In this document: piece by piece, positions 23,002 through 55,908 of the stretch
Numbering within the stretch: position 1 is the stretch's first letter
Layout of the letters: the number at the start of each line of letters is the position of its first letter
Source: Methanomicrobiales archaeon
Lineage (GTDB): Archaea; Halobacteriota; Methanomicrobia; Methanomicrobiales; JACTUA01
Assembly: GCA_015660865.1 (NCBI GenBank)
Contig: JACTUA010000005.1
Location: forward strand, 124,001 to 188,000
Length of the DNA stretch: 64,000 bases
Reading direction: 5' to 3'
Translations under genes and position numbers: made by a program
The notes under the pieces: model-generated
What the model was told of the DNA's origin: nothing
Seen by the model: only the letters and a program-made list of their open reading frames with translations
Database searches by the model: none

Positions 23002-23007
23002 GGGTAT

Positions 23008-25041
23008 ATGCTTCTAAAATCAATCAGTATCGAAAACATTCGAATTTTCAAAGGGTCCCATACCCTTGACCTTGCACCCTTACATCAAGCTAACACCCAT
23101 AAACCGATCATTTTGATCGGTGGAATGAACGGGGCTGGAAAGACCACGCTTTTTGAATCTATCTTTCTCTGTCTCTATGGGCAATATTCTCCTGGTACAA
23201 GGATAACCAAAACAAAATATGAGCATTATGTCGAACAGATGGTTGCTTGGAATAAATATTCAGAAATTCCATTAAATCCTGCAATCGAGGTGATATTCGA
23301 GTTTTCGCATGCTGGTAATACTCATACCTATACAGTCAAAAGAGAGTGGACAGTAAAACCCAGATTTATCGAAAAACTTACCGTGAGAAGAGACGGTCAG
23401 ATTCTTTCAGATCTAGAAAGTGATCAATGGCAAGATCTATTAAATGAATTGATACCACCAAGATTTGCCCGGCTCTTTTTATTTGATGGGGAAAAAATTC
23501 AGAATCTCGTTGAAGATAATGCCGATAATTACTTCCTTCAAGATTCGTTTAAATCTATGCTCGGCCTCGACTTAGTTGAGAGGTTGAAAGCAGATCTAGG
23601 GATATATCTTAGCCGTTACATTAAAAGTAAAGAACTCAATCATTTTACCGAGAAATTAGAGAGTATTGATACACGGATTAGAGAAATTGAGGGGAAAAAA
23701 GATCTATGCCAGCAAGAAAAGGCACATATCCAGAGCCGGTATGATCAGATTCAAGGTGAGATCGAACGTCAAGAACAGATCCTTGCAAGTGAAGGGGGTA
23801 GTTTTGCTCGAAAGCGTGAAGAATTTAAGACCCAAAAAAACCAATTAGATCAAGAGATAACCTGGACTGAGAACGAGATCCGCAATATCTGTACTGGTTT
23901 ATTCCCCTTTTCCATTACTCCAAAATATTGTACACTTCTGAAAAAGCACCTTATCGACGAAGATCAAGTTCAAACTCGCCAAAGATCTCAAGAGGCTATC
24001 CAGTTATACCTGGATGAGTTAAGAAAATCGATAGAGACATTGGCATTTTGGTCGGATCTCAAAATCTCCTCAGCACAACAAGCGAAAATTAGGGAAAAAT
24101 TCTCAGCCCTTATCAGTCAACATTTGGCCGTCAATGACCATCCCGAAAATATTCCATTAATCCATCATCTTTCCCAATACGAATATCATAATTTATTGGA
24201 GTGGATCAGAGAAGCGACAACAAATGTCCCCAAACAAATGCATGATCTCTCCCTGCAACTTGAAAATCTCACTTTAAAACGCACGAAATTGACAGAGAGG
24301 ATTAATAAAGCTCCATCTGATGATATTATCGGTCCTTTTATCCAAAAATTGAATGAATTGCATAAGGATTTGGGACAACTCACCGAAATGCTGAGGAAAA
24401 CCGAAGAGACGATTAAAGAATTCGATCTCCAATTAATAGAACTTGAGAGACTGAAGGAAAAGCAGAATGAAGAAATTGAGGATATTAAAAGTAGCTCGGT
24501 TAAAATGAGCCTTGCCCAGCAAGTGACCCTTATCCTAAACGACTATGTAAAAGAGCTTCAACGACAGAAAATTTCACAATTAAGTGATAATATTCTGGCA
24601 TGTTTCACACGGCTGATCAGAAAAGACGATTATATAAAAGATATTGTGATCGATGAAAATTATAGCATTACCCTCTATGAACCGGATGGACATGCGATCC
24701 CCAAAGAGCTGCTATCCGCTGGCGAGAAAGAGATATTCGCAGTCTCATTGCTCTGGGGTTTGACACTTACATCGGGGCGACAGTTGCCTTTTATTATCGA
24801 CACACCTTTAGGGAGACTTGATAGTGAGCATCGGGGCAACCTTGTTATGGATTTCTTCCAGCACGCAGGAGACCAAATGATCATCTTCTCCACAGACACT
24901 GAAGTAGATAAAGAATATTTCCGAGTACTTCAACCATTTATTACTCGGGCCTACCATTTGGATTATTCGAAAAAGGAACGTCAAACAAAAATTTCTCCCG
25001 GATATTTCTGGGAGAGTGAACCTTTGGAGATCCCAACATGA
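23008..25041 (+). CDS. dndD: DndD, SMC-like ATPase of the phosphorothioation complex
   Basis: A 677-residue ATPase of the RecN/SMC type: Walker A 'GGMNGAGKTTLFE' at residues 38-50, a long coiled-coil middle (about 190-540), an ABC signature 'LLSAGEKEIFAVSLLWGL', and Walker B 'LPFIIDTPLGRLDSEHRG' near the end. 'RLFLFDGEKIQNL' (about residue 155) is a conserved DndD element. It is thought to open or nick DNA for sulfur insertion. The stop overlaps the dndE start (ATGA). Confidence 0.95.
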   Translation: MLLKSISIENIRIFKGSHTLDLAPLHQANTHKPIILIGGMNGAGKTTLFESIFLCLYGQYSPGTRITKTKYEHYVEQMVAWNKYSEIPLNPAIEVIFEFSHAGNTHTYTVKREWTVKPRFIEKLTVRRDGQILSDLESDQWQDLLNELIPPRFARLFLFDGEKIQNLVEDNADNYFLQDSFKSMLGLDLVERLKADLGIYLSRYIKSKELNHFTEKLESIDTRIREIEGKKDLCQQEKAHIQSRYDQIQGEIERQEQILASEGGSFARKREEFKTQKNQLDQEITWTENEIRNICTGLFPFSITPKYCTLLKKHLIDEDQVQTRQRSQEAIQLYLDELRKSIETLAFWSDLKISSAQQAKIREKFSALISQHLAVNDHPENIPLIHHLSQYEYHNLLEWIREATTNVPKQMHDLSLQLENLTLKRTKLTERINKAPSDDIIGPFIQKLNELHKDLGQLTEMLRKTEETIKEFDLQLIELERLKEKQNEEIEDIKSSSVKMSLAQQVTLILNDYVKELQRQKISQLSDNILACFTRLIRKDDYIKDIVIDENYSITLYEPDGHAIPKELLSAGEKEIFAVSLLWGLTLTSGRQLPFIIDTPLGRLDSEHRGNLVMDFFQHAGDQMIIFSTDTEVDKEYFRVLQPFITRAYHLDYSKKERQTKISPGYFWESEPLEIPT

Positions 25042-25424
25042 ACTTTAACAGGGTTCGCATCAGTACGAGTGCAACAATCCGTTTGAAGCAATTACAAATT
25101 CGGACTGGGCTAACGCCTAACATTCTCTCCAGAATTGCAATCTGTTATTCGCTTAACGATCCTGCAATCCCCAATCCCAACGACTACGATGAAAGGGGGA
25201 TGGAGATGAACCGATTTACCCTCACAGGAGATTGGGATTCCTTTTTCATAGCTTTAGTCATGGAACGTTGCATTCAAGATGGACTAGATCCCGAAAAAGA
25301 TCTCGCTGATCAGTTACGTGCACATCTCAATAGAGGCGTATACGGAATATTCTCACGAATCAAAGGATTAGGGGATTTCCAATCATTACTCACCCAGGAG
25401 GCCCCGGGAATCAAAACAAGTTAA
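25038..25424 (+). CDS. dndE: DndE, small DNA-binding component of the phosphorothioation complex
   Basis: A 128-residue protein with the DndE pattern: basic start 'NRVRISTSATIRLKQLQIRTGL', 'NILSRIAICYSL', and a C-terminal 'RAHLNRGVYGIFSRIKGLG'. DndE binds nicked double-stranded DNA as a tetramer in the studied case. Position between dndD and dndA matches the C-D-E-A order of archaeal clusters. Confidence 0.9.
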   Translation: MNFNRVRISTSATIRLKQLQIRTGLTPNILSRIAICYSLNDPAIPNPNDYDERGMEMNRFTLTGDWDSFFIALVMERCIQDGLDPEKDLADQLRAHLNRGVYGIFSRIKGLGDFQSLLTQEAPGIKTS

Positions 25425-25441
25425 TGTGTGAGATGTGATCT

Positions 25442-26605
25442 ATGGAAATTAAACGCCCGATATACATGGATTATCATGCGACGACTCCCGTTGACCCTCG
25501 AGTTCTCGAAACGATGCTCCCTTATTTTTCCGACTTATTTGGGAATGCGGGAAGTATTGACCATCTATTTGGGGCGACTGCAGCCGATGCAGTGAAAAAA
25601 GCCCGTGATCAGTCCGCTCACATTCTCAATGCTCATTCTGATGAGATAATCTTCACAAGTGGCGCAACGGAATCAAATAACATTGCAATCCTAGGCGTTG
25701 CGAAACAATACGCTGAAAAGGGGGATCATATCATAACCTGTGCGACAGAGCATAAGGCAGTTCTCGACACCTGTAAATATCTCCAGAAAATCGGAAAAAC
25801 CGTCACATTTCTTCCCGTTGATCAGTATGGATTGATTGATGTTGCCCAGCTCGAATCTGCCATTACCGACAGGACTATTCTTATAACAATCATGTCAGCG
25901 AACAATGAGATCGGGACTATCGCTCCAATAAAAGAGATCGGAAAGATTGCTCATGATAATAGAGTTATTTTCCACACAGATGCAGCCCAGGCTGTTGGTC
26001 ACTTCATGATTGATATTGAAGCAATGAATATCGATCTCCTCTCTTTTTCAGGTCACAAAATTTACGGACCGAAAGGGATTGGTGGGTTATACATCAGACG
26101 GAGAAATCCGAAAGTAAAACTCACTCCCATTATCTTTGGGGGCGGGCAAGAGAAGGGCCTTCGATCCGGAACATTGAATGTACCCGGGATCGTGGGGTTT
26201 GGGAAGGCACTCGCAATTGCAGAGAAAGAAATGAAAGACGAGGATGAGCGATTCCGGAAATGGACGCTGGAAATGTTTGATGCATTCAAAGAATTATTTC
26301 CTTCTCTGCTTTTAAATGGGCATCCGACCAAACGGCTTGCTCACAATTTGAATGTTTGTTTCCCTGGCATTGAAAGCAAAGCATTGATCCATCTATTGAA
26401 AGACGATCTTGCAATTTCTTCTGGTTCCGCATGTACGACCACGAGCGTCGAACCATCGCATGTGCTAAGAGCAATAGGCGTTCCCGAAGATTTAATCCAT
26501 TCCGCAATCCGATTTGGAATTGGTAGATTTAATACTAAGGAAGAAATTAAGTTTGTTGTCGAAAGGGTTACATCAAGTATAAATAAATTGATAAATATTA
26601 GGTAA
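25442..26605 (+). CDS. dndA: DndA, cysteine desulfurase
   Basis: A 387-residue PLP-dependent desulfurase: 'YMDYHATTPVDPRV' start, 'SGATESNNIAILG', 'DAAQAVGHFMIDI', the PLP Lys in 'SFSGHKIYGPKGIGGLY' and the sulfur-carrying Cys in 'ISSGSACTTTS'. It supplies persulfide sulfur to DndC. NifS/IscS-type function is alternative on family grounds, but position directly after dndE in the same operon fixes the role. No second gene lies between it and the restriction module; a 107-base AT-rich gap follows. Confidence 0.93.
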   Translation: MEIKRPIYMDYHATTPVDPRVLETMLPYFSDLFGNAGSIDHLFGATAADAVKKARDQSAHILNAHSDEIIFTSGATESNNIAILGVAKQYAEKGDHIITCATEHKAVLDTCKYLQKIGKTVTFLPVDQYGLIDVAQLESAITDRTILITIMSANNEIGTIAPIKEIGKIAHDNRVIFHTDAAQAVGHFMIDIEAMNIDLLSFSGHKIYGPKGIGGLYIRRRNPKVKLTPIIFGGGQEKGLRSGTLNVPGIVGFGKALAIAEKEMKDEDERFRKWTLEMFDAFKELFPSLLLNGHPTKRLAHNLNVCFPGIESKALIHLLKDDLAISSGSACTTTSVEPSHVLRAIGVPEDLIHSAIRFGIGRFNTKEEIKFVVERVTSSINKLINIR

Positions 26606-26646
26606 TTTTTCTTATGCATTTTTATAATTAAATGATAATGATAATC

Positions 26647-26658
26647 TTTTTATAAAAA
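26647..26658 (+). promoter_or_regulatory. Separate promoter of the restriction module
   Basis: 'tttttataaaaa' lies 55-66 bases before the helicase ATG in the AT-rich gap after dndA. Nearby are the repeats 'atgataat' (around 26632 and 26683). This suggests the restriction genes can be transcribed apart from the modification genes. Confidence 0.4.
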
Positions 26659-26712
26659 CAAAGAAAATAAGATTTAATAATTACATGATAATTAGAGAGT
26701 GATAGCGATAAG

Positions 26713-28848
26713 ATGTCATTGGACTCTTTGGATCTAAAATATTCTTATGATTCTGATGAAGACGATATTCTGAATGATTTTTATATTCCCGCCTTGTCTA
26801 ATGCTATATCTTATAAAAGAATTTCTGGTTTTTTTTCATCTAATGCTCTGGCTATCGCAGCTAGGGGGATAGCATATTTTATTAAAAATGATGGCGATTT
26901 TCGCCTAATCACTAGTGTACAATTATCGGAAGAAGATTTTACGAAGATAAAAGAAACTACACAGAATCAGATGTTGTTTTATCTGGAAGAGAAATTTTTA
27001 GAAGAGGTTGATGCATTAGAAAATGAGTTGATGAGAGATCATGTAAAAATGATGGGTTGGATGCTGAAAACGGGGCATTTGGAAATGAAAATTGCATTAA
27101 CTGCAGGAGGGATACAACATCAAAAGATTGGTATTTTTGAGGGCAATGAAGGTCACACTGTATCATTTAGTGGTTCGGATAATGAAACAAAGAAAGGATG
27201 GATTGATAATATTGAGGAATTCCATGTTTTTTGTTCTTGGCGTCAGAATGAAATGGAACATATTAATGACATAACCAGAAGATTTGATAAATATTGGCAT
27301 GATAAAGCACAGAGGGCCCGAGTATTTCCGATTAGTGAGGCAATAAAAGATAAATTGATTAAAATTGCTCCAAAAGATGATGATGAATTTGAGACGTTAT
27401 CCCTTGATACTACAAGGAATCTCCTTGCGAAGCATAAGGATAGTATAACGAAGAGAAAGAAGCAGGCGGGACCTATTTCAAATAATAAAAATAAGTATTT
27501 GAGTTTAAGAAACTATCAAAAAGATGCCGTCGATGCTTGGTTTGAAAATAAGAGAAAAGGAATTTTCGAGATGGCTACCGGAACAGGGAAAACAGAAGCT
27601 GCAATTGGTGTAATTGACCGTTTGATAAATTCCAAAGAGAAAATTATAATTATTATCACTGTTTGGGGGCAGTCTCTTTTAGAGCAATGGATAAATAAAT
27701 TAAAATTTTATGGTTATGGTGTTAAAGGTGCTTCTTCGGATCAAAGATATTCAAATTGGCAAGAAGAATTAGGGAGAGATATCTTAAACGTTTCTTGCGG
27801 TTATCGAAATCATTCAATCGTTGTTACAACGTATCAAACATTCTCTTCCAAGAAATTTACTGATTTGATACAAAAAATGCAAGGAAATGTTCTCCTTATC
27901 TGTGATGAAGTTCACCACGTTGGAGCTCCGGAACTTCAAAAAGGCCTTGTTGAAAACTATAATTTCCGTCTAGGTTTAAGTGCAACGCCCGATCGTTGGT
28001 TCGACGAAATTGGAACAGCACTAATCAGATCATATTTCGATAAAACAGTCTATGAATTTTCGATGAAAAAGGCCATGGATGAAATTAATCCAGATACTGG
28101 AAAACCATATTTATGTTCTTATAAATATTATCCAATTCTTGTTGAACTGAGCGCCGAAGAAAATGAAGAATATATTAAATTAACTAAGGAGATTGGAAGA
28201 AGATATCATACTACTAAACTGCGGAAAATTGATGATGAAAAATTAACAGGATTACTTATCAAGAGATCAAACATTAAGAATAATGCTCATGCAAAATATG
28301 ACGAATTAAAAATAATTGTTCCGAGATTTATAAATCAAATGAATTATTGTCTTATCTATTGTTCAGGAAAACAAATGGATTACATAAAATTACTATTGAA
28401 CCAATATAAAATCATTTATCACGAATTCACTCAATATACAACCCCTAAAATTCGTCAAGATATATTGTTAAAATTTGAAGAGGGGAGAAAATCTGGAGGA
28501 TATGATGTTCTATTGGCAATAGATTGCCTAAATGAAGGAATAGATATCCCCTCTGCCCGCATGGGAATATTTTTAGAGAATAGTCAAAATCCAATAGAGT
28601 TTATACAAAGAAGAGGGAGATTATTACGACCCCATGCAGACAAAAAAGAAGCAATATTATTCGATTTTATCGTTATCCCCAATTTTTACGGATTAGAGGA
28701 AAACTATAAAGAACTTGAAAAACGAGAACTCCAAAAGGAGTATAATCGATTGGTTGAATTCGCAAAATTAGCAAAAAACACTCAGGAAGCTCTTAAAGTC
28801 ATGGAAAAAATTGCCGATGAATATAACCTCGTTGTGATGAATGGGTGA
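26713..28848 (+). CDS. PLD-domain SF2 helicase of the phosphorothioation-linked restriction module
   Basis: A 711-residue protein. Residues 20-190 form a phospholipase D-like nuclease domain with 'HQKIGIFEGNEGHT' and 'FSGSDNETKKGW', one HxK half of the HKD motif. The rest is a superfamily 2 helicase: motif I 'MATGTGKTEAAIG' (about residue 290), II 'DEVHH', III 'LGLSATPDRW', VI 'IQRRGRLLRPH'. Its position right after dndCDEA matches the restriction part of the archaeal DndCDEA-PbeABCD system; I do not assign an individual Pbe letter. Very AT-rich, lysine- and asparagine-rich, unlike the dnd genes beside it. Its stop overlaps the SD of the next ORF. Confidence 0.85.
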   Translation: MSLDSLDLKYSYDSDEDDILNDFYIPALSNAISYKRISGFFSSNALAIAARGIAYFIKNDGDFRLITSVQLSEEDFTKIKETTQNQMLFYLEEKFLEEVDALENELMRDHVKMMGWMLKTGHLEMKIALTAGGIQHQKIGIFEGNEGHTVSFSGSDNETKKGWIDNIEEFHVFCSWRQNEMEHINDITRRFDKYWHDKAQRARVFPISEAIKDKLIKIAPKDDDEFETLSLDTTRNLLAKHKDSITKRKKQAGPISNNKNKYLSLRNYQKDAVDAWFENKRKGIFEMATGTGKTEAAIGVIDRLINSKEKIIIIITVWGQSLLEQWINKLKFYGYGVKGASSDQRYSNWQEELGRDILNVSCGYRNHSIVVTTYQTFSSKKFTDLIQKMQGNVLLICDEVHHVGAPELQKGLVENYNFRLGLSATPDRWFDEIGTALIRSYFDKTVYEFSMKKAMDEINPDTGKPYLCSYKYYPILVELSAEENEEYIKLTKEIGRRYHTTKLRKIDDEKLTGLLIKRSNIKNNAHAKYDELKIIVPRFINQMNYCLIYCSGKQMDYIKLLLNQYKIIYHEFTQYTTPKIRQDILLKFEEGRKSGGYDVLLAIDCLNEGIDIPSARMGIFLENSQNPIEFIQRRGRLLRPHADKKEAILFDFIVIPNFYGLEENYKELEKRELQKEYNRLVEFAKLAKNTQEALKVMEKIADEYNLVVMNG

Positions 28849-28853
28849 TGTTC

Positions 28854-29033
28854 ATGAAAAAGAAAATGAATACAAGGATCCTCAAAAAAATTGAAGATTC
28901 AGATCTAGATACTCCAATCAAGGAATTGCTCGTTGATATTATGGAATTTGAATCTCAATGGGTTAAGGGGAGTAGTTATTCTGAGTACTATCGAAAAAAA
29001 ATTGAAAAGGCAATTGCTATAAGGAGAACTTAA
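28854..29033 (+). CDS. Small protein of the restriction module
   Basis: A 59-residue, highly charged, all-helical protein with 'SDLDTPIKELLVDIMEFESQ' in the centre. ATG 28854 is chosen because 'gggtgatg' at the end of the helicase gene is a good ribosome site for it. It ends one base before the next ATG, so it is surely co-translated. No family recognised; a bridging subunit between the helicase and the SMC-like ATPase is a guess from position. Confidence 0.7.
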   Translation: MKKKMNTRILKKIEDSDLDTPIKELLVDIMEFESQWVKGSSYSEYYRKKIEKAIAIRRT

Positions 29034-29034
29034 T

Positions 29035-31011
29035 ATGACAAAAATAATGAATATTACTATTGAGAATTTTCGCCCGTTTTTTGGGATAAATAATTTAGAA
29101 TTCTCATCCGACAGTAATAAGAATTTTAATGTGGTTTTTGCCGGAACTGGGAGTGGAAAAACCTCTGTATTGGACGCCATTTCGTGGTGTTTATTTGGAA
29201 AAGAGTATCACAAACAGCTACCCAAAGATACCTTACTAAATGATAAAAAACGGGATGAATTAAAGAAAGAAAAAATTGCTGATGTTCGTGTAGAAATAAT
29301 AATGGGGGAAAAGCAAAATAACATTGAATTCATTTTCAATAGAAAAATATCATTTATAAAAAAATCGGATAAAAGCGTGACAATTTTACCTTCTTCAGAA
29401 AAATTTCATGCAAAACTTAAGGATGCACGTAATAATTTAATCGATGCTGCAGATCCGAGCGTTGTTGTAAATTGGGTATTTCCTGAGAGAATTCATCATC
29501 TCTTTATGTTTGATGGCGAAAAGCTACAGGATTTTTTTGAAACCGATAATATCAAAAATACAGAACATGCGATCAAAGACATTACACAAATGGATCAACT
29601 CGACAACGCCGTAGCACATTTAATTCATAGTTCAAAGGAATTTTTAACGAAAGAAGAGATGACCGATCCCCAAATACAACAACTAGAGGATTTCATTGAC
29701 AGTGTTCGAAAACGAGTTCAAGATAATCGTCTTGAGGAAGAATCAAGAAAAATTTCTTTAGAAGAAGCTAAAAAGGCGTTCGAAGCGGCAGATGAACAAT
29801 TGAAAAGAATTGATTTTGATGATAAAGGACTTTTAGAAGAAGAGAGATCGATTCAGGGAAGAATAAGCAATTCGGAATTAAAAATAAAAGAAATTGAAAT
29901 TAACCGATTTCATCACTTATTACAAGGAATCCCTACGATATTCTGCAAGAAAGAATTAGAGAGAGCAGTTCAAAAAATCGACAAGAAGTATGAATCAGGT
30001 GAATTGCCTTCTGATGTCAAAGTTGAATTTATTAATAAATTACTGGAAAAACAAAGATGTATTTGTAAAACGCCACTCATAAAAGGGTCAGAGGCACGAA
30101 AATTTGTTGAAGCTTATAAAAATGCTGCCCCACTCTCAAACTATGAGGACGAAATCAGACACGGACAAGCTGAAATCAAATCAATGCTAAAAGAAATAAA
30201 CCAATTTTTTGAGAAACGTGTAGATTATTATAAACAACTAGAAGAGACGAAACAATCATTGGATGATGATAAACAGAGATTTGAAAGTATTAAAAAGAAA
30301 ACTGAAAGTATAAATAATCCTGAAATTCAAAGATTACGATCTCTAAAAAGTTTTCATTTGGGTGAAATGCAAAGATATAATAAAGAAATAGGGGGCATCC
30401 AAAATAAAATTTCGGAAGATGAAGACGCAATACTCAAATTGGGAAAACAAAAAATGAAGTTGGAGAAAGAATCGATTAAAAACAAAGCAATGCGGGAAAA
30501 ATACGAAATTTGTGAAAAAGCATTATCGTTTTTGGAAAACACTCAAAAAAATCTCCTGGTTGAACTTAAAAAAGATATCGAACAAAGAACCAATTCTATT
30601 TTTAAAGAGAGCGTTATTGAGCCGAGAGTTAAGGAAGTAATCATTTCTGATTTTTATGAATGCCAAGTTCTCGATACTAGCGGATTGAATATATACCCTA
30701 CTCTTTCCAGTGGTCAAAAGCAAGGTTTGGCTACGGCCTTTATGATCGCACTACGTAGAGACTCTGGCTTCGACTCCCCGATTTTGATTGATTATCCTTT
30801 TGGTAGAATTGATCCTCGCTCCACAGCAGAATTTATTGATGTGTTGAAAAAAATATTAGCTGACGTTCAGGTGATTTTCTTTTTAATTGAAGGGAAAGAA
30901 TATAGTGACTCTGTGAAAGCTCAAATGCAAGATCGTTTAGGATCACTATATGAAATTTGTAAATTAAAAGATGAGAAAATGAGTGAGGTGATTAAGCATG
31001 CCCGAAACTGA
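29035..31011 (+). CDS. DndD-like SMC ATPase of the restriction module
   Basis: A 658-residue ATPase: Walker A 'AGTGSGKTSVLDAIS' at residues 41-55, 'HLFMFDGEKLQDF' near residue 157 (the same element as in DndD), coiled coils from about 200 to 560 with a central 'KQRCICKTPL' CxC site (a possible zinc hook), signature 'TLSSGQKQGLATAFMIAL', and Walker B 'SPILIDYPFGRIDPRS'. It is a second DndD-type ATPase in one island and not a duplicate of the modification one: similarity is confined to motifs. It may sense or pull DNA in the restriction step. Overlaps the following gene by 14 bases. Confidence 0.85.
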   Translation: MTKIMNITIENFRPFFGINNLEFSSDSNKNFNVVFAGTGSGKTSVLDAISWCLFGKEYHKQLPKDTLLNDKKRDELKKEKIADVRVEIIMGEKQNNIEFIFNRKISFIKKSDKSVTILPSSEKFHAKLKDARNNLIDAADPSVVVNWVFPERIHHLFMFDGEKLQDFFETDNIKNTEHAIKDITQMDQLDNAVAHLIHSSKEFLTKEEMTDPQIQQLEDFIDSVRKRVQDNRLEEESRKISLEEAKKAFEAADEQLKRIDFDDKGLLEEERSIQGRISNSELKIKEIEINRFHHLLQGIPTIFCKKELERAVQKIDKKYESGELPSDVKVEFINKLLEKQRCICKTPLIKGSEARKFVEAYKNAAPLSNYEDEIRHGQAEIKSMLKEINQFFEKRVDYYKQLEETKQSLDDDKQRFESIKKKTESINNPEIQRLRSLKSFHLGEMQRYNKEIGGIQNKISEDEDAILKLGKQKMKLEKESIKNKAMREKYEICEKALSFLENTQKNLLVELKKDIEQRTNSIFKESVIEPRVKEVIISDFYECQVLDTSGLNIYPTLSSGQKQGLATAFMIALRRDSGFDSPILIDYPFGRIDPRSTAEFIDVLKKILADVQVIFFLIEGKEYSDSVKAQMQDRLGSLYEICKLKDEKMSEVIKHARN

Positions 31012-31873
31012 GGCACCTCGCGATTTAGCAATTGATAGTTCAAAACATGGATTTTATGAGCGAATTAAAAAAGGGGAATATATACCCGAATTAAAAGGCT
31101 ACGAAATGGCATATTTATTTGCCATTGCAATGGCCTATGGTGTACATTATAAAAAACGCAAACCACTACGTCCTGGCCATATTAAACGATCAATCAGCAG
31201 GAATATGATCGATAAAGAATTTTCTTGGCTAATAAGGGCTATTGCTATAAGTGCGTTGGATGAAGGCGTGGACATCATTCCCGATCGCACTCAAATCTAT
31301 AAAATTGCTGAAGAATACGCAAATGGCGGTATTGAAATTATTGAAGAGGAAATAACAAATATCAAACAATTTGAGTTGGATATGGAGTTAGAATTAAATA
31401 AAATAATGGGTGAAATTGCCTCAAAAACCGAAAAAACGGATAAAATACAAACGATTCCTATTCAACCAAAACATGAATTAGAATCCATGCTCGATGCTTT
31501 CGAGGTTAGAATTCGAAAATTCATTGATAGCAAACTGACAGAGAATAAAGCCGATTATTGGTCTGATATTAATTTGGATTTCAAAAAAGATATTGATCAG
31601 AGAATTCGGGATTATCTTGTAAAGAATCCATCATTAAATTCAGAGGATATTAAGCCCCTTGAATTTTTTACGATGGGAGAATATTATAAAATTATGAAAT
31701 TTTATTGGATGGTGTTTGAATCTATTTTTAGATCTAAGACCGAGCTGGAGAAACATTTTCGAAATATCAATGAATTACGAAATTGCTTTAAACATGTTCG
31801 TGAACCAACTATTACAGAAAAGAAATTAGGGGAAGCTTCATTAATTTGGTTCGAAACAATACTAAATAAATAA
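30998..31873 (+). CDS. Last restriction-module protein, with C-terminal HEPN-type motif
   Basis: A 291-residue protein not recognised as a whole. The N-terminal ~115 residues are helical ('EMAYLFAIAMAYGVHYKKRK', 'FSWLIRAIAISALDEGVD'); a linker with 'IPIQPKHELESML' leads to a C-terminal helical domain (about 150-291) that ends in 'NINELRNCFKHVREP', i.e. R261-N-x3-H266, the RNxxxH form of the HEPN RNase motif, at the expected place ahead of the last helix. Compare Swt1-like HEPN domains. If real, the module carries a potential RNA-cutting effector. Overlaps the SMC-like gene, so is cotranslated. Confidence 0.75.
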   Translation: MPETEAPRDLAIDSSKHGFYERIKKGEYIPELKGYEMAYLFAIAMAYGVHYKKRKPLRPGHIKRSISRNMIDKEFSWLIRAIAISALDEGVDIIPDRTQIYKIAEEYANGGIEIIEEEITNIKQFELDMELELNKIMGEIASKTEKTDKIQTIPIQPKHELESMLDAFEVRIRKFIDSKLTENKADYWSDINLDFKKDIDQRIRDYLVKNPSLNSEDIKPLEFFTMGEYYKIMKFYWMVFESIFRSKTELEKHFRNINELRNCFKHVREPTITEKKLGEASLIWFETILNK

Positions 31874-49399: not shown

Positions 49400-50254
49400 A
49401 TGGACTGGTTCTCGTACGATATCAACCGCTATACCAACGTGAGGATGGTGGCCATCCCCATGGTCCTCTTCCTCCTCTCCCTCATCGTCGTCGGGATGAC
49501 CTTTGCCTCCACGGGCCTGCCCGTCAGGCCCGGCATCGACTTCACGGGGGGGACCTCCGTGACCATTGCCACGAACGACAGTGAAGCCACCCTCCAGGCC
49601 TACTTCGCAGGCTTCCCCCTGGAGCCCATCACCCGCGATGTCACCTCAAAACTCTACCTCCTCAAGTTCACGAAGATGTCTGCCGGAGAGAACCAGCAGC
49701 TCATCGATAAGATCAACGCACGGTACCCTGACGCGAGCGTGGACTACATCGACGAGACATTCGGGCAGACCCTCCAGGGCCAGGCCATCATCGCCCTCAT
49801 CTTCTCCTTCATCGGGATGGCCGTGGTGGTCTTCATCGCGTTCCGGACCTTCATCCCGTCCATCGCCGTGGTCACGTGCGCCTTTATCGACATGGTGGGG
49901 ACCGCCGCCGGGATGAACGTCCTCGGCATCCCCCTCACCCTCCCCACCACGGCGGCACTCCTGATGCTCATCGGCTACTCCGTGGACAGCGACATCCTCC
50001 TCACCATGCGGGTGCTCAAGCGGCAGGGAAAGCTCGAGGATAAGCTCGCCGGGGCCTTCCGGACCGGGATCATCATGACCTCCACCGCCCTCGCCGCGGT
50101 CCTCTCCCTCTGGATCGTCTCTACCTTGGGGCAGATCGAGGTGATCAGGGACATTGCAGCGGTCCTCTTCGTGGGCCTGGTCCTGGACATCATCAACACC
50201 TGGATCACGAATGCCACGATCCTCAAGTGGTACGCCGAGAGGAAGGGATCCTGA
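49400..50254 (+). CDS. secF: SecF, protein export membrane protein
   Basis: A 284-residue protein with six membrane helices; the first is followed by 'PVRPGIDFTGGTSVTI', and the helix-4 to 6 region has 'GQTLQGQAIIALIFSFIGMA' and 'LMLIGYSVDSDILLTMRV' with the conserved Asp pair, then 'RTGIIMTSTALAAVLSLWIV'. SecDF uses the ion gradient to pull exported proteins across the membrane. ATG 49400 is used because it gives the standard N-terminus just behind the TATA box. Overlaps secD by one base. Confidence 0.94.
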   Translation: MDWFSYDINRYTNVRMVAIPMVLFLLSLIVVGMTFASTGLPVRPGIDFTGGTSVTIATNDSEATLQAYFAGFPLEPITRDVTSKLYLLKFTKMSAGENQQLIDKINARYPDASVDYIDETFGQTLQGQAIIALIFSFIGMAVVVFIAFRTFIPSIAVVTCAFIDMVGTAAGMNVLGIPLTLPTTAALLMLIGYSVDSDILLTMRVLKRQGKLEDKLAGAFRTGIIMTSTALAAVLSLWIVSTLGQIEVIRDIAAVLFVGLVLDIINTWITNATILKWYAERKGS

Positions 50255-51756
50255 TGGCGAAGCCGAAGAAGAAGAAGGAGGCTGAGAAGAAGCCGGAGCC
50301 CGTGAAGAGGGAGGGACTCAGGGCGGTCGTGAAGGACTGGAGGGTACTCATCCTCATTGCCCTGCTTGTTTTCTCGGTCGCCTCCATCTACCCCCACTTC
50401 GAGAACGGCAAGTTCACCACCGCACTCCAGTTCGGCCTCGACCTCCAGGGAGGCTCCTGGCTCCAGATGACCTTTTCCTCCGAGGTGGTGGGGTTCACCT
50501 CCCAGCGCTCCGCCGATGACCTGGCCGCCGCCCTGAACAGCCGCCTGGATGCCGAGGTGTCGCAGGTCGCGCCCGGCCAGCTGGAGATCCGGAAGCTGAT
50601 CCCGAGGGCTGAGCTCGAGCAGGCGTTCTCGGCCGAGAATGCCACCCTGACCACCTATGAGCAGGGGGTCTCCCGGGCAACCGGGGACGATATCAAGAGG
50701 ATCCTCGAGGAGAAGATCAATACCCTGGGGACAAAAGATGCACGGGTGAACCTTCTCACCCCGGTAGGCACGAACGTCGTCCGGTACGTGCGGGTGGAGC
50801 TCGCGGGGGTGGACATCAACACCGCGAGGAACATCGTCGGCAAGCAGGGGCTCTTCGAGATCCGGATCAAGACGGTCGGGAACGAGACCGAGCATGTCCT
50901 CTTCGGGAACGCCATCACCTCGGTGGGGAACCCCCAGCAGGACCCGACGCGGATGACCTGGGGCGTCCCCTTCACCCTCTCTGACCAGGGCGCGGCAGAA
51001 TTCCGGCAGGCCGCGAACGAGTACAGCGCCGTGACCGACCCCGAGAACCATCCCATCTCCATGCTCCTTGACAATGTCACCGTCTTCTCCGCACCTCTCG
51101 ATGTCACCCTGGCAAAGGAGCTCCTGACCCAGGATGTCTCGAGGCTGCAGGCCAGCACCGGCTCGGGGACCGCGGGGATGAACGAGGCCCAGACCCTGGA
51201 GATCCACCTCCGTGCAGGTGCTCTCCCTGTCAACGTGCAGGTGGCGAACTTCGGCCAGGTCTCCGCCCCCCTCGGTGAGTACTTCAAGTCCATGTCCTTC
51301 ATCGCCGGCATCCTTGCGCTCCTCACCGTCGGGCTCGTCATCTACCTCCGCTACCGCGAGCCCTCCATCGTCCTCCCCATGGTGGGGACGAACTTCGCCG
51401 AGGTCATCATCCTCCTCGGGATCGCCCGGTTCGTCCAGCAGCTCGACCTCGCCTCCATCGCCGGCCTCATCGCCGTCGTGGGGACCGGGATCGACCAGCT
51501 CGTGGTCATCACCGACGAGGTCCTGCACGAGGGGAAGGTCCCCTCGCCTGCCCTCTACTTAAAGCGCCTGACCCGGGCCCTCGCCATCATCCTCGTAGCC
51601 GCGGGCACGGTGGTCGTTGCCATGCTCCCCCTCGCCCTCATGGACCTCTCCACCCTGAAGGGGTTCGCCTTCATCACCATCCTCGGGGTCCTCATCGGGG
51701 TCGCGATCACCCGCCCGGCCTACGGGAAGATCATCATGGCGGTGCTGTCGAAGTAG
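50254..51756 (+). CDS. secD: SecD, protein export membrane protein
   Basis: A 500-residue protein: Lys-rich start, first helix, 'LQFGLDLQGGSWLQM' (family motif), large extracellular P1 domain to about residue 345, then helices 2-6 with 'LASIAGLIAVVGTGIDQLVV' and the end 'GVLIGVAITRPAYGKII'. Gene order secF-secD is the reverse of most bacteria and usual for Euryarchaeota. TGATG overlap couples translation with secF. Confidence 0.94.
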   Translation: MAKPKKKKEAEKKPEPVKREGLRAVVKDWRVLILIALLVFSVASIYPHFENGKFTTALQFGLDLQGGSWLQMTFSSEVVGFTSQRSADDLAAALNSRLDAEVSQVAPGQLEIRKLIPRAELEQAFSAENATLTTYEQGVSRATGDDIKRILEEKINTLGTKDARVNLLTPVGTNVVRYVRVELAGVDINTARNIVGKQGLFEIRIKTVGNETEHVLFGNAITSVGNPQQDPTRMTWGVPFTLSDQGAAEFRQAANEYSAVTDPENHPISMLLDNVTVFSAPLDVTLAKELLTQDVSRLQASTGSGTAGMNEAQTLEIHLRAGALPVNVQVANFGQVSAPLGEYFKSMSFIAGILALLTVGLVIYLRYREPSIVLPMVGTNFAEVIILLGIARFVQQLDLASIAGLIAVVGTGIDQLVVITDEVLHEGKVPSPALYLKRLTRALAIILVAAGTVVVAMLPLALMDLSTLKGFAFITILGVLIGVAITRPAYGKIIMAVLSK

Positions 51757-51843
51757 GACCGCTCCTCTTTTTTAACCTGACTTCGGCGACCTGGCAGCAC
51801 TGTCCGGTGTGTAAGATTATGCTGCCCGACGCCATATCGAATT

Positions 51844-51917
51844 GAATTCGCTATCTAACTGGTTAGTACGTCGCTTTCACATGGCGGAGGTCTCGAGTTC
51901 GAATCCCGACGAGCCCA
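51844..51917 (+). pseudogene. Decayed tRNA-Val (CAC)
   Basis: Exactly tRNA length. The anticodon arm is intact ('tcgct' / 'ggcgg' around loop 'ttcacat'), and the T-loop 'ttcgaat' is present. The acceptor pairs badly: 'gaattcg' against 'cgagccc' (two A.C mismatches and one U.G); the D-stem has two mismatches, one T-stem pair is A.C, and position 8 is C instead of the universal U. No complementary 5' acceptor 'gggctcg' is seen nearby. A non-canonical but functional tRNA cannot be excluded. It sits at the edge of a lower-GC patch. Confidence 0.65.
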
Positions 51918-51954
51918 TCTATTCTGACACATTTTGGAAATTCGCAAAAAAATG

Positions 51955-53007
51955 TTATTCCTGCGGGTGGATGATAACTTTTAAACTCCCATCCCGGTGC
52001 CGGGCAGTTAAGAGAAAACCTTTAACCGTTTCTCTTAAGGGAAAAACATGGGTTATCATATCGGCCACATTCACTCTTTTATACTGAATCCATTTCAGGG
52101 CTGTGGAAAGATTATGGAAATCGGCACCATAGGAATGGGTAATCGTAACCTCCTTTTGCCACAGGTTCCAGAGATTAATTTCGGATTGGATCTCAGGATG
52201 TGTGGGGGCAAAAAATAAGATCGTACCCCCGGGTCCGATGGCTTCAAGTGACTGTTTCACACAAATGGGAACCGGTGCGGTCATAATAACGGTGTCTGCG
52301 CCCAGGCCGCCATTTAATTCTTTAAACCTTCCGGGAACATCTTCCGTAGCGGAAATGGTTGCATCGGCACCGAATTTCCGGGCGACCTTTAACCGATCGG
52401 GACTCGGGTTGGAGACAGCAATAAATCCCGCACCATTCAGACGGGCTGCCTGGATATGCAACAATCCGGTTATACCGGCACCGATGATGAGGACGGATCG
52501 ACCATCCGAGGTCGGAGCCCATTGTTGCCCACGTAAAACACTTCCAAGGGGTTCAACAAAGGTTCCCATCTCAAAGGAAACCGGTTCTGGAAGGCGTAAC
52601 ATACCCCGATCCACGTTGATCCCGGGTAAAACAACATATTCTGCAAATGCCCCGAACGCATTTTTAAATTTTGTTTTTTGCAGTGTGTCACAGGCGGTCG
52701 TATGCCCACGCATACAGGCATTACACGTATTGCAGGGAACATGATGGGTAACCACGACCCGATCTCCCACGTTCCATTTCGGATCTACGCCGGAACCAAC
52801 TTCTGCAATAATTCCTGTGCATTCATGTCCAAACGCTCCAATACCACCCGGTCTTCCGGCACGCTTCATCCGATACCATTCCATGACATCCGACCCGCAA
52901 ACTCCGCAGGCCATGATTTTGACCTTGATTTCTCCCGGTCCGACTGACAGATCTTCAACATCTTCGGTGCGGATGTCACTGTTCGAATAATAGACGGCTG
53001 CTTTCAT
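51955..53007 (-). CDS. Zinc-dependent alcohol dehydrogenase (MDR family)
   Basis: A 350-residue medium-chain dehydrogenase. The catalytic zinc site is 'ACGVCGSDVMEW' with 'GHECTGIIAEVGSGV', the structural zinc site 'PCNTCNACMRGHTTACDTLQ', and the NAD domain motif 'VLIIGAGITGLLHIQAARL'. It resembles threonine/sorbitol dehydrogenase-type MDR proteins; the substrate is not evident, but a sugar phosphate or polyol fits the aldolase upstream. GC content is lower than that of flanking chromosomal genes. Starts 44 bases downstream of the aldolase gene. Confidence 0.88.
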   Translation of the reverse strand: MKAAVYYSNSDIRTEDVEDLSVGPGEIKVKIMACGVCGSDVMEWYRMKRAGRPGGIGAFGHECTGIIAEVGSGVDPKWNVGDRVVVTHHVPCNTCNACMRGHTTACDTLQKTKFKNAFGAFAEYVVLPGINVDRGMLRLPEPVSFEMGTFVEPLGSVLRGQQWAPTSDGRSVLIIGAGITGLLHIQAARLNGAGFIAVSNPSPDRLKVARKFGADATISATEDVPGRFKELNGGLGADTVIMTAPVPICVKQSLEAIGPGGTILFFAPTHPEIQSEINLWNLWQKEVTITHSYGADFHNLSTALKWIQYKRVNVADMITHVFPLRETVKGFLLTARHRDGSLKVIIHPQE

Positions 53008-53051
53008 GGTTTTCCCCGTGGAGAGCAAATGTACAAAAACATATGAAAAAT

Positions 53052-53876
53052 TCAGTCAAGCCTGGATGCACCGGGTAAACATGCGTTGTAAATATCCAGG
53101 GCTTCCTTTACCGTATGATTTCCATGGACAATTGAACTGATTGCCTTGATCATGCCTATCGGATTGTCATCCTGGAAAATATTTCGTCCAAAGTCAACCC
53201 CCGCTGCACCTGCCTGGACAGAATGGTAGGCCATTTGAAGAGCATCAGGAGGACTTGAATACTTACCTCCTGCAACGACGACCGCAGTGGGAGAAACCGA
53301 GTCAACTACTCTCGAAAATTCCTCACAATAATAGGTCTTGATAATCCGGGCCCCGGCATCCTGGCAGATACGGGATGCCAAAGCCAGATAGCGCAAATCC
53401 CGGGCCATGTTTTTACCCACGGCCGTGACTGCCAGAACGGGAATTCCGCATTCTTCGGCCTGGTTGATCATATCAGTGAGATTTAGAATCGTTTGTTGCT
53501 GATTGGCAGAGCCGATATACACACTGATGGCGACACCGGCCGCATCCATCCGAATGGCTTCTTGAATCGTAACAGTAATCTTTTCATCACTTAACTCTTC
53601 ATTTAAAACGCTGTTTCCCCCCGTGACACGTAACATGATGGGTTTTGATCCGACATCTTCGGGCGCGATATTGCTCCGCACAGCCCCGCGTGTCGTCATC
53701 AGACAATCGCAATAGGGAAGCAGTGTTTTTATTGTTTTACTCATGTTACGCAAGCCCGTTGTCGGCCCCTGAAAATAAGGATGGTCTATCGCGAGCATTA
53801 CCACCCGATTATCTTTCGGATTGATTATCCGGTTCATCCGGCTTTGAATTCCAATGTCGAGATATGCAGGTACCAT
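53052..53876 (-). CDS. LsrF-like class I aldolase/thiolase
   Basis: A 274-residue (beta/alpha)8 protein strongly like LsrF: 'AIDHPYFQGPTTGLRN', 'LMTTRGAVRSNI', 'IMLRVTGGNSVLNEELSDEK', 'VYIGSANQQQTILNLTD', 'VTAVGKNMARDLRYLALASR', catalytic Lys in 'GARIIKTYYCEEF', 'VVAGGKYSSPPDALQMAYHS', and 'GVDFGRNIFQDDNPIGMIKA'. LsrF acts on phosphorylated AI-2 products in bacteria; related enzymes are DhnA-type fructose-bisphosphate or hept-ulosonate aldolases. Without lsr transport genes the substrate in this archaeon is unknown. A 'ttttttatag' TATA lies upstream on the minus strand. GC content is low, like the dehydrogenase. Confidence 0.85.
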   Translation of the reverse strand: MVPAYLDIGIQSRMNRIINPKDNRVVMLAIDHPYFQGPTTGLRNMSKTIKTLLPYCDCLMTTRGAVRSNIAPEDVGSKPIMLRVTGGNSVLNEELSDEKITVTIQEAIRMDAAGVAISVYIGSANQQQTILNLTDMINQAEECGIPVLAVTAVGKNMARDLRYLALASRICQDAGARIIKTYYCEEFSRVVDSVSPTAVVVAGGKYSSPPDALQMAYHSVQAGAAGVDFGRNIFQDDNPIGMIKAISSIVHGNHTVKEALDIYNACLPGASRLD

Positions 53877-53924
53877 GGGGACACTTCACGAGAATTACTG
53901 TACACAACTATAAAAAAGGTGGGA

Positions 53925-54143
53925 TTATTCCTGCTTCGGTCTGATGATCAGGTATCCCTTCTCTGTCAACCAGTGGTGAAATTCATGAGTACTATGGATA
54001 CAATTGGATGCACAGATCGCCCGGATTTCTTCATATTTTGTAGATTTTCCCACTTCGTTATTCAAAAGCAATTGTATCGGACATTTCACATCATTACAAT
54101 ATTCCCGACGCTTATAATCGATATACCCATCCATCGACTGCAT
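53925..54143 (-). CDS. Small Cys-containing hypothetical protein
   Basis: A 72-residue protein with 'YKRREYCNDVKCPIQLLLN' and 'IRAICASNCIHSTHEFHHW', i.e. four Cys and several His arranged CxxxxxC and CxxxC, followed by 'GYLIIRP'. This would suit a metal or cluster site. The pattern looks conserved but the family is not known to me. Between it and thioredoxin (54144-54442) nothing is supported except promoter-like sequence. Confidence 0.6.
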   Translation of the reverse strand: MQSMDGYIDYKRREYCNDVKCPIQLLLNNEVGKSTKYEEIRAICASNCIHSTHEFHHWLTEKGYLIIRPKQE

Positions 54144-54442
54144 AACAGATTCTTACTCATGCAATGAAAAAGGCTTACGGAATTGTTATCTAGTCATCCA
54201 CGCTCCCGGGGCGGTGTGAGTACCGACCCGCAGCAAGGACGAGGGAGCTTGCGATGTGCACTTATTTTTCCGGGGCGCTTTTCCTGATGGGAGCCCGTAG
54301 GCAATGAGGGCCATCCCGATAAGCCATTCCGCACAGAAGATCCCGGCATTCACCCGGCAGGTCTCGCCAGCTGTGCAACCGGGGCCGGCCCTGTATACGA
54401 ATCTTTATGTCCCCTCCCGGTACTCCTTCTTCCGGTGACTGA

Positions 54443-54715
54443 ATGGGAAAGCCCGTTTTGATCGATTTTTACGCCGACTGGTGCGGCCCCTGCAAGCTCC
54501 AGAGCCCAATCGTTGAGGAGCTCGCCCGGAGGATGGGCGACCAGGTCGAGGTGAAGAAGATCAACGTGGACGACCACATGGAGATGGCCAACCAGTACAG
54601 GATCTACGTGGTCCCGACCCTGATCATCGAGAAGGACAAGAAGGAGATCAGGAGGATCGAGGGGCTCACCGACGCCGCGTCCCTCGAGGCCATCATGAAG
54701 CCGCTGGTGGAATAA
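54443..54715 (+). CDS. Thioredoxin
   Basis: A 90-residue thioredoxin lacking the first strand of longer forms, with active site 'YADWCGPCKLQSP' and cis-Pro 'YVVPTLII'. It reduces disulphides in cytoplasmic proteins. It precedes the F420 reductase by one base, so a shared electron role is plausible but not proven. 'aatctttatgtcc' upstream may be its TATA box. Confidence 0.93.
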   Translation: MGKPVLIDFYADWCGPCKLQSPIVEELARRMGDQVEVKKINVDDHMEMANQYRIYVVPTLIIEKDKKEIRRIEGLTDAASLEAIMKPLVE

Positions 54716-54716
54716 C

Positions 54717-55367
54717 GTGAAGGTCGGTATCGTCGGCGGAACGGGGGATATCGGTGAGGGCATGGCCCTCCGGATCTCCCAGGTCCACGAGGTGATCCTG
54801 GGCTCGCGGGAGGAGGAGCGGGCGTGCGCCTCCAGCGACGCCTGCCACCTGGCGCTCGACGAGAAGGGGCTCCCCTGCACCTGCTCGGGCGACTCGAACC
54901 AGGACGCGGTCGACCGGGCCGGAGTGGTGATCCTCGCCGTCCCCTTCCAGCACCTCGCCCCGACCCTCGCGTCCCTCGCGGGGTTCGAGGGGAAGGTGGT
55001 CGTCTCCCCCGTGAACCCCATGGTCCGGAAGGATTTCTTCTTCTTCGCACCTCCCCCCGAGGGCTCCGCGGCCCAGCTCGTCCGGCGACTCCTCCCCGGG
55101 AAGGCAGCGGTCTGCACGGCGTTCAACAACATCGCGGCCGGCTCCTGGAAGGCCCTCGACGCCCCCTTCACCCACTCCGTCGCGGTCTGCGGCGACGATA
55201 CGGCGGCGAAGGCGGTCGTGATGGAGCTCGTCGGGAGCATACCCCGCCTCGCGGGCTTCGACGCGGGGCCGCTCGGGGTCTCCCCCATGGTCGAGGCCAT
55301 CACCCCCCTCCTCCTGAACATCGCGAAGTACCAGAAGATGCGGGATGTCGGGATCCGGTTCAGTTAG
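54717..55367 (+). CDS. fno: NADPH-dependent F420 reductase (Fno)
   Basis: A 216-residue protein beginning at GTG 54717 just after the thioredoxin stop: 'VGIVGGTGDIGEGMALRIS' NADP motif, 'VILAVPFQHLAPTL', 'VVSPVNPMVRKDFFFFAPPP', 'AVCTAFNNIAAGSWKA'. The enzyme moves hydride between F420H2 and NADP, the link to NADPH for biosynthesis in methanogens. Its C-terminus overlaps the aldolase start by 23 bases. Confidence 0.92.
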   Translation: MKVGIVGGTGDIGEGMALRISQVHEVILGSREEERACASSDACHLALDEKGLPCTCSGDSNQDAVDRAGVVILAVPFQHLAPTLASLAGFEGKVVVSPVNPMVRKDFFFFAPPPEGSAAQLVRRLLPGKAAVCTAFNNIAAGSWKALDAPFTHSVAVCGDDTAAKAVVMELVGSIPRLAGFDAGPLGVSPMVEAITPLLLNIAKYQKMRDVGIRFS

Positions 55368-55908
55368 TGAAGAACTCGCCCGGGTCGGGAGGCGGGTCAT
55401 CGCCGAGGGGCTGGTCTCGGGGAACTTCGGGAACGCGAGCATCCGGTCCCGGGACGGGTTCCTCGTCAAGCGGACCGGGGCCTACCTGGACGACCCGGGG
55501 CCCCTTGCCTTCGTCCCCCTCGAGGGCGATCTCCCCGCCGAGGCGTCCCGGGAGGCCCTGATCCACCGGGCCATCTACCAGGAGACCCGCCATGGCGCCG
55601 TCCTCCACGCCCACCCCGTCTTCGCTGTCACCCTCTCCCTCTCCCGCGAGAAGGTCGTCCCCGTCGACTCCAAGGGGCAGCTCCTCTGCCCCGCGATACC
55701 CGTCGTGTCAGGTGCCTCCGGGTCGCAGAAGCTCGGGGACCGGGTGGCGGAGGCGCTGGTGCACGGGAAGATCGCCATCGCCCGGGGGCACGGCACCTTC
55801 GCCGCGGGGAAGGACCTCGAGGAGGCCTACCTCGTCACCTCTGCCGCTGAACACGCGTGCAGAATCCTCTACCTTGCTGGTACTCTGGCCAGGCAATCCG
55901 GCAGATAA
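55345..55908 (+). CDS. Class II aldolase/adducin family protein
   Basis: A 187-residue class II aldolase: 'VSGNFGNASIRSRDGFLVK' (phosphate site), zinc ligands 'VLHAHPVFAVTLSL', and 'IARGHGTFAAGKDLEEAY' with the third His. In archaea such L-fuculose-phosphate aldolase-like enzymes act on sugar phosphates; a role in F420 lactate supply has been described for a methanogen relative, which is notable given its coupling to the F420 reductase gene, but the substrate cannot be set from sequence. Confidence 0.82.
   Translation: MSGSGSVSEELARVGRRVIAEGLVSGNFGNASIRSRDGFLVKRTGAYLDDPGPLAFVPLEGDLPAEASREALIHRAIYQETRHGAVLHAHPVFAVTLSLSREKVVPVDSKGQLLCPAIPVVSGASGSQKLGDRVAEALVHGKIAIARGHGTFAAGKDLEEAYLVTSAAEHACRILYLAGTLARQSGR

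Follow-up and report, generated by a model that had tools for sequence, protein, structure and literature searches.

LsrF of Escherichia coli (PDB 3gkf, 3glc and 4p2v) is the thiolase of 3-hydroxy-5-phosphonooxypentane-2,4-dione (P-HPD), which it converts into acetyl-coenzyme A (acetyl-CoA) and dihydroxyacetone phosphate (DHAP) (PMC7828210). Its residues for Schiff-base formation, acid/base catalysis and phosphate binding are Lys203, Asp57, His58, Gly226, Gly227, Gly253 and Arg254 (PMC2728841). Archaeal lsrF homologs have been assigned to quorum sensing on the basis of homology (PMC11442133), and Sfum_2464, the LsrF homolog of Syntrophobacterium fumaroxidans, which is reported to be upregulated in co-culture with methanogens, was called a receptor of autoinducer-2 (AI-2) (PMC10787695). 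Here we analyze 64,000 nucleotides of a Methanomicrobiales archaeon (GenBank assembly GCA_015660865.1, contig JACTUA010000005.1, positions 124,001 to 188,000), termed the window, in which an LsrF-type gene is found together with genes for a zinc-binding medium-chain dehydrogenase/reductase (MDR) and for a 72-residue Cys/His-rich protein (Table 1). Our best reading of this trio, which is put forward tentatively, is that of a laterally acquired module, in which oxidation by the MDR enzyme and thiolysis by the LsrF-type enzyme would convert a 5-deoxypentulose 1-phosphate into acetyl-CoA and DHAP.

A second described system bears on this reading, namely, the disposal of 5-deoxyribose by drdK/drdI/drdA and the DHAP shunt (PMC6079011, PMC10986504). 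A bacterial class II aldolase splits 5-deoxyribulose 1-phosphate into DHAP and acetaldehyde, with an equilibrium that lies strongly toward the uncleaved sugar (PMC6079011). For M. jannaschii, as cited in other papers, an isomerase acts on 5-deoxyribose 1-phosphate, and 6-deoxy-5-ketofructose 1-phosphate (DKFP) has a further use.

Proteins encoded by the trio

By its sequence, the LsrF-type protein is a member of the LsrF enzyme family NF006081, as it passes this P-HPD thiolase model with 345.4 bits, against a cut-off of 297, and it matches E. coli LsrF (3gkf) with an E value of 1.5e-73. Alignment with the E. coli enzyme places Lys203, Asp57, His58, Gly226, Gly227, Gly253 and Arg254 at K180, D31, H32, G203, G204, G230 and R231, respectively, which keeps the Schiff-base lysine and the phosphate-binding residues; all of these positions are invariant in 49 aligned archaeal sequences. 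Unlike E. coli LsrF, the window protein is archaeal, is some 28 residues shorter at its N-terminus, and is partnered by an MDR enzyme and the 72-residue protein. It belongs to the same superfamily (PF01791) as the MJ0400-type 2-amino-3,7-dideoxy-D-threo-hept-6-ulosonate (ADH) synthase, but it scores below the cut-off of the corresponding model (TIGR01949, 168.6 versus 299.45 bits), and fructose bisphosphate (FBP) aldolase models also score below cut-off. Separately, two tandem paralogs, 31-32% identical to the LsrF-type protein and probably of the MJ0400/DKFP type, were noted elsewhere in the genome of the window (G000, C9:129477-131077; genomes carry G numbers, contigs C numbers and loci L numbers). 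This tandem is found again in the family, where the version of G010 has one TGA within the matched frame of one copy.

The MDR protein falls below every equivalog cut-off. A threonine dehydrogenase proper was considered and rejected, with 151.9 bits against the cut-off of 458.35 for the L-threonine 3-dehydrogenase model TIGR00692. Residues C37, H61, E62, C92, C95, C98 and C106, which we take to be the zinc ligands, are invariant in 40 aligned sequences; the homolog of L059, with 31% identity, was left out of both this alignment and the MDR tree. Where the second strand of the nucleotide fold ends, Asn (as SNP) is found in the window's enzyme and in 12 of 24 other close homologs, whereas the rest and the divergent homologs have Asp there, a change that may alter the preference between NAD and NADP.

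Within the 72-residue protein, C16, C21, C44, C48, H50, H56 and W58 are invariant in a 27-row alignment. Neither Pfam nor NCBIfam holds a family for this protein or for its divergent relatives; a profile search of PDB sequences gave no relative (best E value of 0.45), and a fold search with a low-confidence model (mean pLDDT of 64.6) gave no match (best E value of 6.7). At L152:1339-2394 the small protein is fused in frame to the LsrF-type protein, as a single open reading frame (ORF) of 352 residues. A shorter form, 30-38% identical to that of the window, is placed after the MDR gene in L142, L143 and L146. The 72-residue protein probably binds metal and serves the LsrF-type enzyme as a partner or regulator. 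In L144, L148 and L150, genes for an ABC-2 type permease, its ATPase and a PadR-like regulator, as judged by eye, adjoin the small-protein gene.

Conservation of the trio across archaea

The trio occurs in Methanomicrobiales and in metagenome-assembled genomes (MAGs) of Sigynarchaeota and Lokiarchaeota, and in more diverged form in other families of the phylum. A scan of genome_contigs by exact peptide patterns, a method that picks up close relatives, yielded 30 loci; these overlap with loci taken from the G genomes (the match coordinates of L061 are those of L037), and the counts are thus not independent. Among the 26 closest loci (L031-L056), with an LsrF-type identity of at least 71.9%, three come from Asgard MAGs, two of Sigynarchaeota and one of Lokiarchaeota (72-78% identity). 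The 72-residue protein gene is present in 25 of the 26, lying 1.4 kb upstream in L052, and the MDR gene in 23, with all four missing genes falling at contig ends. In 17 of these 23 loci the MDR gene follows the LsrF-type gene after 29-72 bp. The other six have 586-1239 bp in between, with extra genes (L034:6823-7628, L035:5733-6971, L038, L042, L043 and L051), and in four of them the inserted gene is flavodoxin-like, Pfam having been run on one. As for the remaining four loci (46-50% identity), L057 (Freyarchaeota) has an MDR gene at 99 bp and no recognized 72-residue protein gene, L059 has a 31% identical MDR 2.5 kb off, and L058 and L060 have no MDR gene in the stretch examined.

Within the order, the 72-residue protein gene is carried by 28 of 232 genomes, which represent 12 of 40 genera. 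In three of these 28 matches (G128, G156 and G230) the frame is interrupted by a stop; the ORF of G156 is itself intact, at 70 residues. A sample of 392 genomes from across the phylum contains 30 with the LsrF-type gene (E value up to 1e-60), of which 17 do not belong to the order. Among these 17 divergent genomes, 12 have the 72-residue protein gene and 14 an MDR gene (at least 40% identity), directly adjacent in ten, where the MDR counts refer to the stretch first fetched around each LsrF-type gene; G277 (L154) has its MDR gene about 21 kb away.

No published description of a three-gene module of this kind was found among openly licensed papers. The enzyme families are known, and it is their combination, together with the orphan third protein, that is apparently undescribed. 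Carriage by viruses or plasmids was also considered and rejected. No exact-peptide-pattern match was found in viral_contigs, three phage records were all below 60% identity, and so were all 227 records from the plasmid collection; among the 30 plasmid matches listed, 19 have 42.8-46.5% identity and are mostly annotated as bacterial lsrF, and 11 are more distant.

Probable lateral transfer into a high-GC genome

The segment 51844-54143 has a GC content of 0.475, against a mean of 0.619 (standard deviation of 0.034, minimum of 0.535) for 414 overlapping comparison windows of 2300 bp, from which this patch and an island at 20-32 kb were excluded. This agrees with a preliminary description of the DNA, made from its letters, which had put sampled lines of the patch at about 45% GC. 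The trio itself has a GC content of 0.485-0.494 and, at third codon positions (GC3), of 0.47-0.49, in a neighborhood of 0.66. Elsewhere, the GC content of the trio roughly tracks that of its host, as in L040 (0.41 in 0.42) and L056 (0.47-0.48 in 0.43), with larger offsets in L011 (0.62-0.65 in 0.54) and L047 (0.50 in 0.44).

The patch lies between the genes for SecD (50227-51756) and thioredoxin (54443-54715). The same junction is free of the trio in six relatives of the family, with spacings of 56 (G008), 57 (G005), 58 (G007), 81 (G006) and 142 bp (G002), and of 273 bp in G003, where it lies at a contig end. In G004 and G009 the two flanking genes are on separate contigs; G001 gave no match to SecD. 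A close homolog of the LsrF-type protein is present in only two of 11 family genomes (100% and 87% identity), the matches of the other genomes being distant paralogs. Furthermore, the two carriers hold the gene at different loci, as in G010 the trio lies on a different contig and the SecD-thioredoxin site measures 1521 bp. The trio is regarded as foreign here because of its composition and of the empty sites in relatives, and a recent lateral transfer into this genome is well supported by these comparisons.

In the tree of LsrF-type proteins, the window groups with L054 and L044 from Methanoregulaceae rather than with G010, on branches that are not strongly supported (93/76 and 93/74), while the MDR tree does not resolve its placement. 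A medium-GC member of the order is the likely recent donor. In both trees the three Asgard sequences group as a single clade, which lies next to the methanogens in one tree and within them in the other, where the root is unsure.

Vertical inheritance, combined with gene loss in the relatives and a drift in composition, seems quite improbable to us. It is true that the family genomes are mostly incomplete drafts, and that the patchy presence in the order (28/232) could also come from loss; but this explanation has to face a trio-free junction in six relatives with the trio of G010 elsewhere, GC3 values far from the surrounding GC while other carriers' trios roughly track their hosts, and an LsrF-type protein whose nearest relatives, if without strong branch support, are L054 and L044, not G010. 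Thus, given two carriers out of 11 and six trio-free junctions, inheritance with the same flanks in all relatives was not seen, several of these relatives being incomplete drafts. The preliminary description had proposed the transfer of a sugar-phosphate enzyme pair and had suggested, among its checks, presence in relatives and phylogeny of the aldolase. Its proposal is upheld by the distribution, the empty sites and the GC offset; the LsrF-type tree, in turn, points the same way in separating the window from G010, with the modest branch support given above.

Proposed function of the module

In the scheme that we tentatively favor, the MDR enzyme would oxidize the C4 hydroxyl, at the CH3-CHOH end, of a 5-deoxypentulose 1-phosphate. 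For instance, 5-deoxyribulose 1-phosphate (CH2OP-CO-CHOH-CHOH-CH3) would give CH2OP-CO-CHOH-CO-CH3, that is, P-HPD, the very compound for which the NF006081 model is named. The LsrF-type enzyme would then thiolyze P-HPD with CoA into acetyl-CoA and DHAP. The sugar could be supplied either from 5'-deoxyadenosine, via a phosphorylase and MtnA, or from acetaldehyde and DHAP, via a class II aldolase. The same logic of oxidation followed by CoA-dependent cleavage is known from threonine dehydrogenase (Tdh), which oxidizes a CH3-CHOH group, and 2-amino-3-ketobutyrate CoA ligase, a pyridoxal phosphate enzyme, which then cleaves the product with CoA to give acetyl-CoA. The MDR protein is most similar to Tdh, but it lies far below the Tdh cut-off, and the second enzyme of the window is of the Schiff-base (DeoC/LacD) kind. 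This function is proposed tentatively, as possible rather than probable.

This scheme shares with 5-deoxyribose disposal and the DHAP shunt the proposed 5-deoxyribulose 1-phosphate and the product DHAP, and a class II aldolase is encoded in 27 of 28 carrier genomes; unlike them, however, the trio would oxidize and thiolyze the sugar phosphate to acetyl-CoA, instead of releasing acetaldehyde by aldol cleavage (PMC6079011, PMC10986504). Since the equilibrium of that cleavage favors the uncleaved sugar, an oxidative exit that traps the product with CoA would be expected to overcome it. In the loci read, the surroundings of the trio showed no DHAP-shunt cluster, consisting of a kinase or phosphorylase, an isomerase and a class II aldolase, and neither a kinase nor an isomerase gene was seen next to the three genes.

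Several observations weigh against the proposed oxidation and thiolysis. The likeness of the MDR enzyme to Tdh is common to many polyol dehydrogenases, and the archaeal LsrF-type proteins lack an N-terminal stretch of about 28 residues of E. coli LsrF. A phosphorylase of the purine nucleoside phosphorylase (PNP) type is encoded in 26 of the 28 carriers, and MtnA in 228 of the 232 genomes of the order at an E value of at most 0.001 (202 over the cut-off); these enzymes and the class II aldolase are near-universal, so that their presence lends weak support, and no clustering of MtnA or phosphorylase genes with the trio was seen. Moreover, five of the 17 divergent genomes have no recognized 72-residue protein gene, and in L144, L150 and L152 a distance of 2.5-7 kb separates the MDR gene from the LsrF-type gene.

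A reading that we find nearly as likely is that the LsrF-type protein works as an ordinary class I aldolase, dependent on DHAP and devoid of thiolase activity, which would make or break some other ketose phosphate, with the MDR enzyme oxidizing or reducing the aldehyde partner or another sugar phosphate. The core residues that it retains are indeed common to the whole superfamily (PMC2728841), and it does obtain scores, albeit below cut-off, with the MJ0400-type and FBP-aldolase models; the P-HPD thiolase model, however, is the only one that it passes. The neighborhood of the divergent loci speaks to a variant of the favored scheme. MDR, class II aldolase and deoC genes are consecutive in L144, L153, L158 and L159, and in L160 a class II aldolase gene follows the MDR gene, with 175 bases of the stretch left beyond (L158, L159 and L160 are from the genomes of L150, L152 and L154). 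The aldolase and deoC genes of L144 and L153 pass NF006413 and TIGR00126. These neighbors, in five divergent genomes, with deoC in four, fit the proposed scheme, but they also fit a route with DHAP as a carrier of acetaldehyde, in which acetaldehyde from DeoC or another source would be condensed with DHAP by the class II aldolase, oxidized by the MDR enzyme and released by the thiolase, with the net conversion of acetaldehyde, CoA and NAD(P) into acetyl-CoA. We consider this route unlikely. It is favored by the consecutive genes just described and by the class II aldolase of 27 of the 28 carriers, but neither a class II aldolase nor a deoC gene was found near the trio in L031-L057, nor does either adjoin it in the window, deoC not having been searched genome-wide.

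Breakdown of AI-2, in the form of phospho-4,5-dihydroxy-2,3-pentanedione (phospho-DPD), as in enteric bacteria, was rejected as highly improbable, even though the NF006081 model is passed and archaeal lsrF homologs have been interpreted in this way (PMC11442133). In contrast with the E. coli lsr context, no FGGY kinase (PF00370, LsrK-type) scores over the cut-off in any of the 28 carriers, 14 of them at least 90% complete, and the single sub-threshold hit is in G143; no lsr genes were seen beside the trio in the loci read, the LsrACDB transporter and LsrG not having been searched genome-wide.

Having weighed these alternatives, we return to oxidation and thiolysis of a 5-deoxypentulose phosphate. 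It is tempting to speculate, although we regard the full proposition as doubtful, that the trio represents a new archaeal branch for the removal of 5-deoxypentulose phosphates by oxidation and CoA thiolysis, in which the small metal-binding protein acts on the thiolase, and that the unit travels among methanogens and to or from Asgard archaea. If so, the enteric AI-2 role of LsrF would represent one case in which a more general deoxysugar-phosphate thiolase was recruited, both parts of 5'-deoxyadenosine, a by-product of radical S-adenosylmethionine enzymes, would be recovered as central metabolites independently of oxygen, and an orphan protein family would become tied to a thiolase. The module gives the quorum-sensing interpretation a concrete competitor, for which a substrate can be named, and it provides a well-documented case of metabolic genes that moved into a high-GC methanogen.

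Features at the borders of the patch and elsewhere in the window

Table 1. Location of the trio and of associated features in the window.
Feature	Coordinates	Strand	Remarks
Zinc-binding MDR dehydrogenase gene	51955..53007	-	350 residues from ATG; nearest L-threonine 3-dehydrogenases
LsrF-type gene of the DeoC/LacD family, candidate CoA-dependent thiolase	53052..53876	-	274 residues; matches NF006081 and 3gkf
72-residue Cys/His-rich protein gene, third member of the unit	53925..54143	-	Upstream of the LsrF-type gene; intact ORF
tRNA-Val(CAC) relic at the patch edge	51844..51917	+	Full-length alignment with intact tRNA-Val(CAC) genes
SecD-thioredoxin gap, 2686 bp	51757..54442	.	56-273 bp in six family relatives; insert ends approximate
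Native class II aldolase gene, outside the insert	55345..55908	+	NF006413, 212.2 bits versus cut-off of 203; PF00596

The insert consists of the relic and three intact genes, the genes being on the minus strand. The preliminary description had correctly recognized the LsrF-type and MDR genes and their kinds, and had overlooked the third. It had also named a decayed tRNA-Val, as the full-length alignment bears out, even though neither ARAGORN nor Rfam calls a tRNA at this position. The mismatches to intact tRNA-Val(CAC) genes are mostly in the acceptor and D stems. The best matches, of 90-91% over 66-70 nucleotides, are in other genomes of the order, with 89% for the family member G007, whereas the intact tRNA-Val(CAC) of the host itself gives 80% over 50 nucleotides; what these matches would tell about the donor is ambiguous.

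That the relic marks the point of integration, as had been proposed with it, found no support. Its 3' end (21 nucleotides, up to three mismatches) occurs once in the window, with no direct repeat, and no integrase or transposase was found among the genes inspected, which run from SecD up to 55.9 kb, which leaves its role as a putative integration site unproven. Among 37 other loci scanned, a tRNA lies near the trio in one, a tRNA-Leu about 0.8 kb beyond the MDR gene. Overall, the low GC content, both genes, the relic and the transfer of a sugar-phosphate enzyme pair thus stand from the preliminary description, in contrast with the integration mark; it had noticed neither how widely the unit is conserved nor a plausible substrate.

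The native class II aldolase gene is situated beyond thioredoxin and a gene of the F420-dependent oxidoreductase family, and its product belongs to the same family, NF006413, as the aldolases encoded after the MDR gene in L144 and L153.

A bigger and more extreme low-GC island (31-45%) occupies positions 20405-31873 of the window. Judged by eye, its gene content resembles a DNA phosphorothioation (Dnd) set, in the order DGQHR/DndB-like protein, DndC-like protein, DndD-like ATPase, cysteine desulfurase, helicase and a second SMC-like ATPase. Immediately ahead of it, at 18613-19794, a gene for a Fic-domain protein was likewise recognized by eye.

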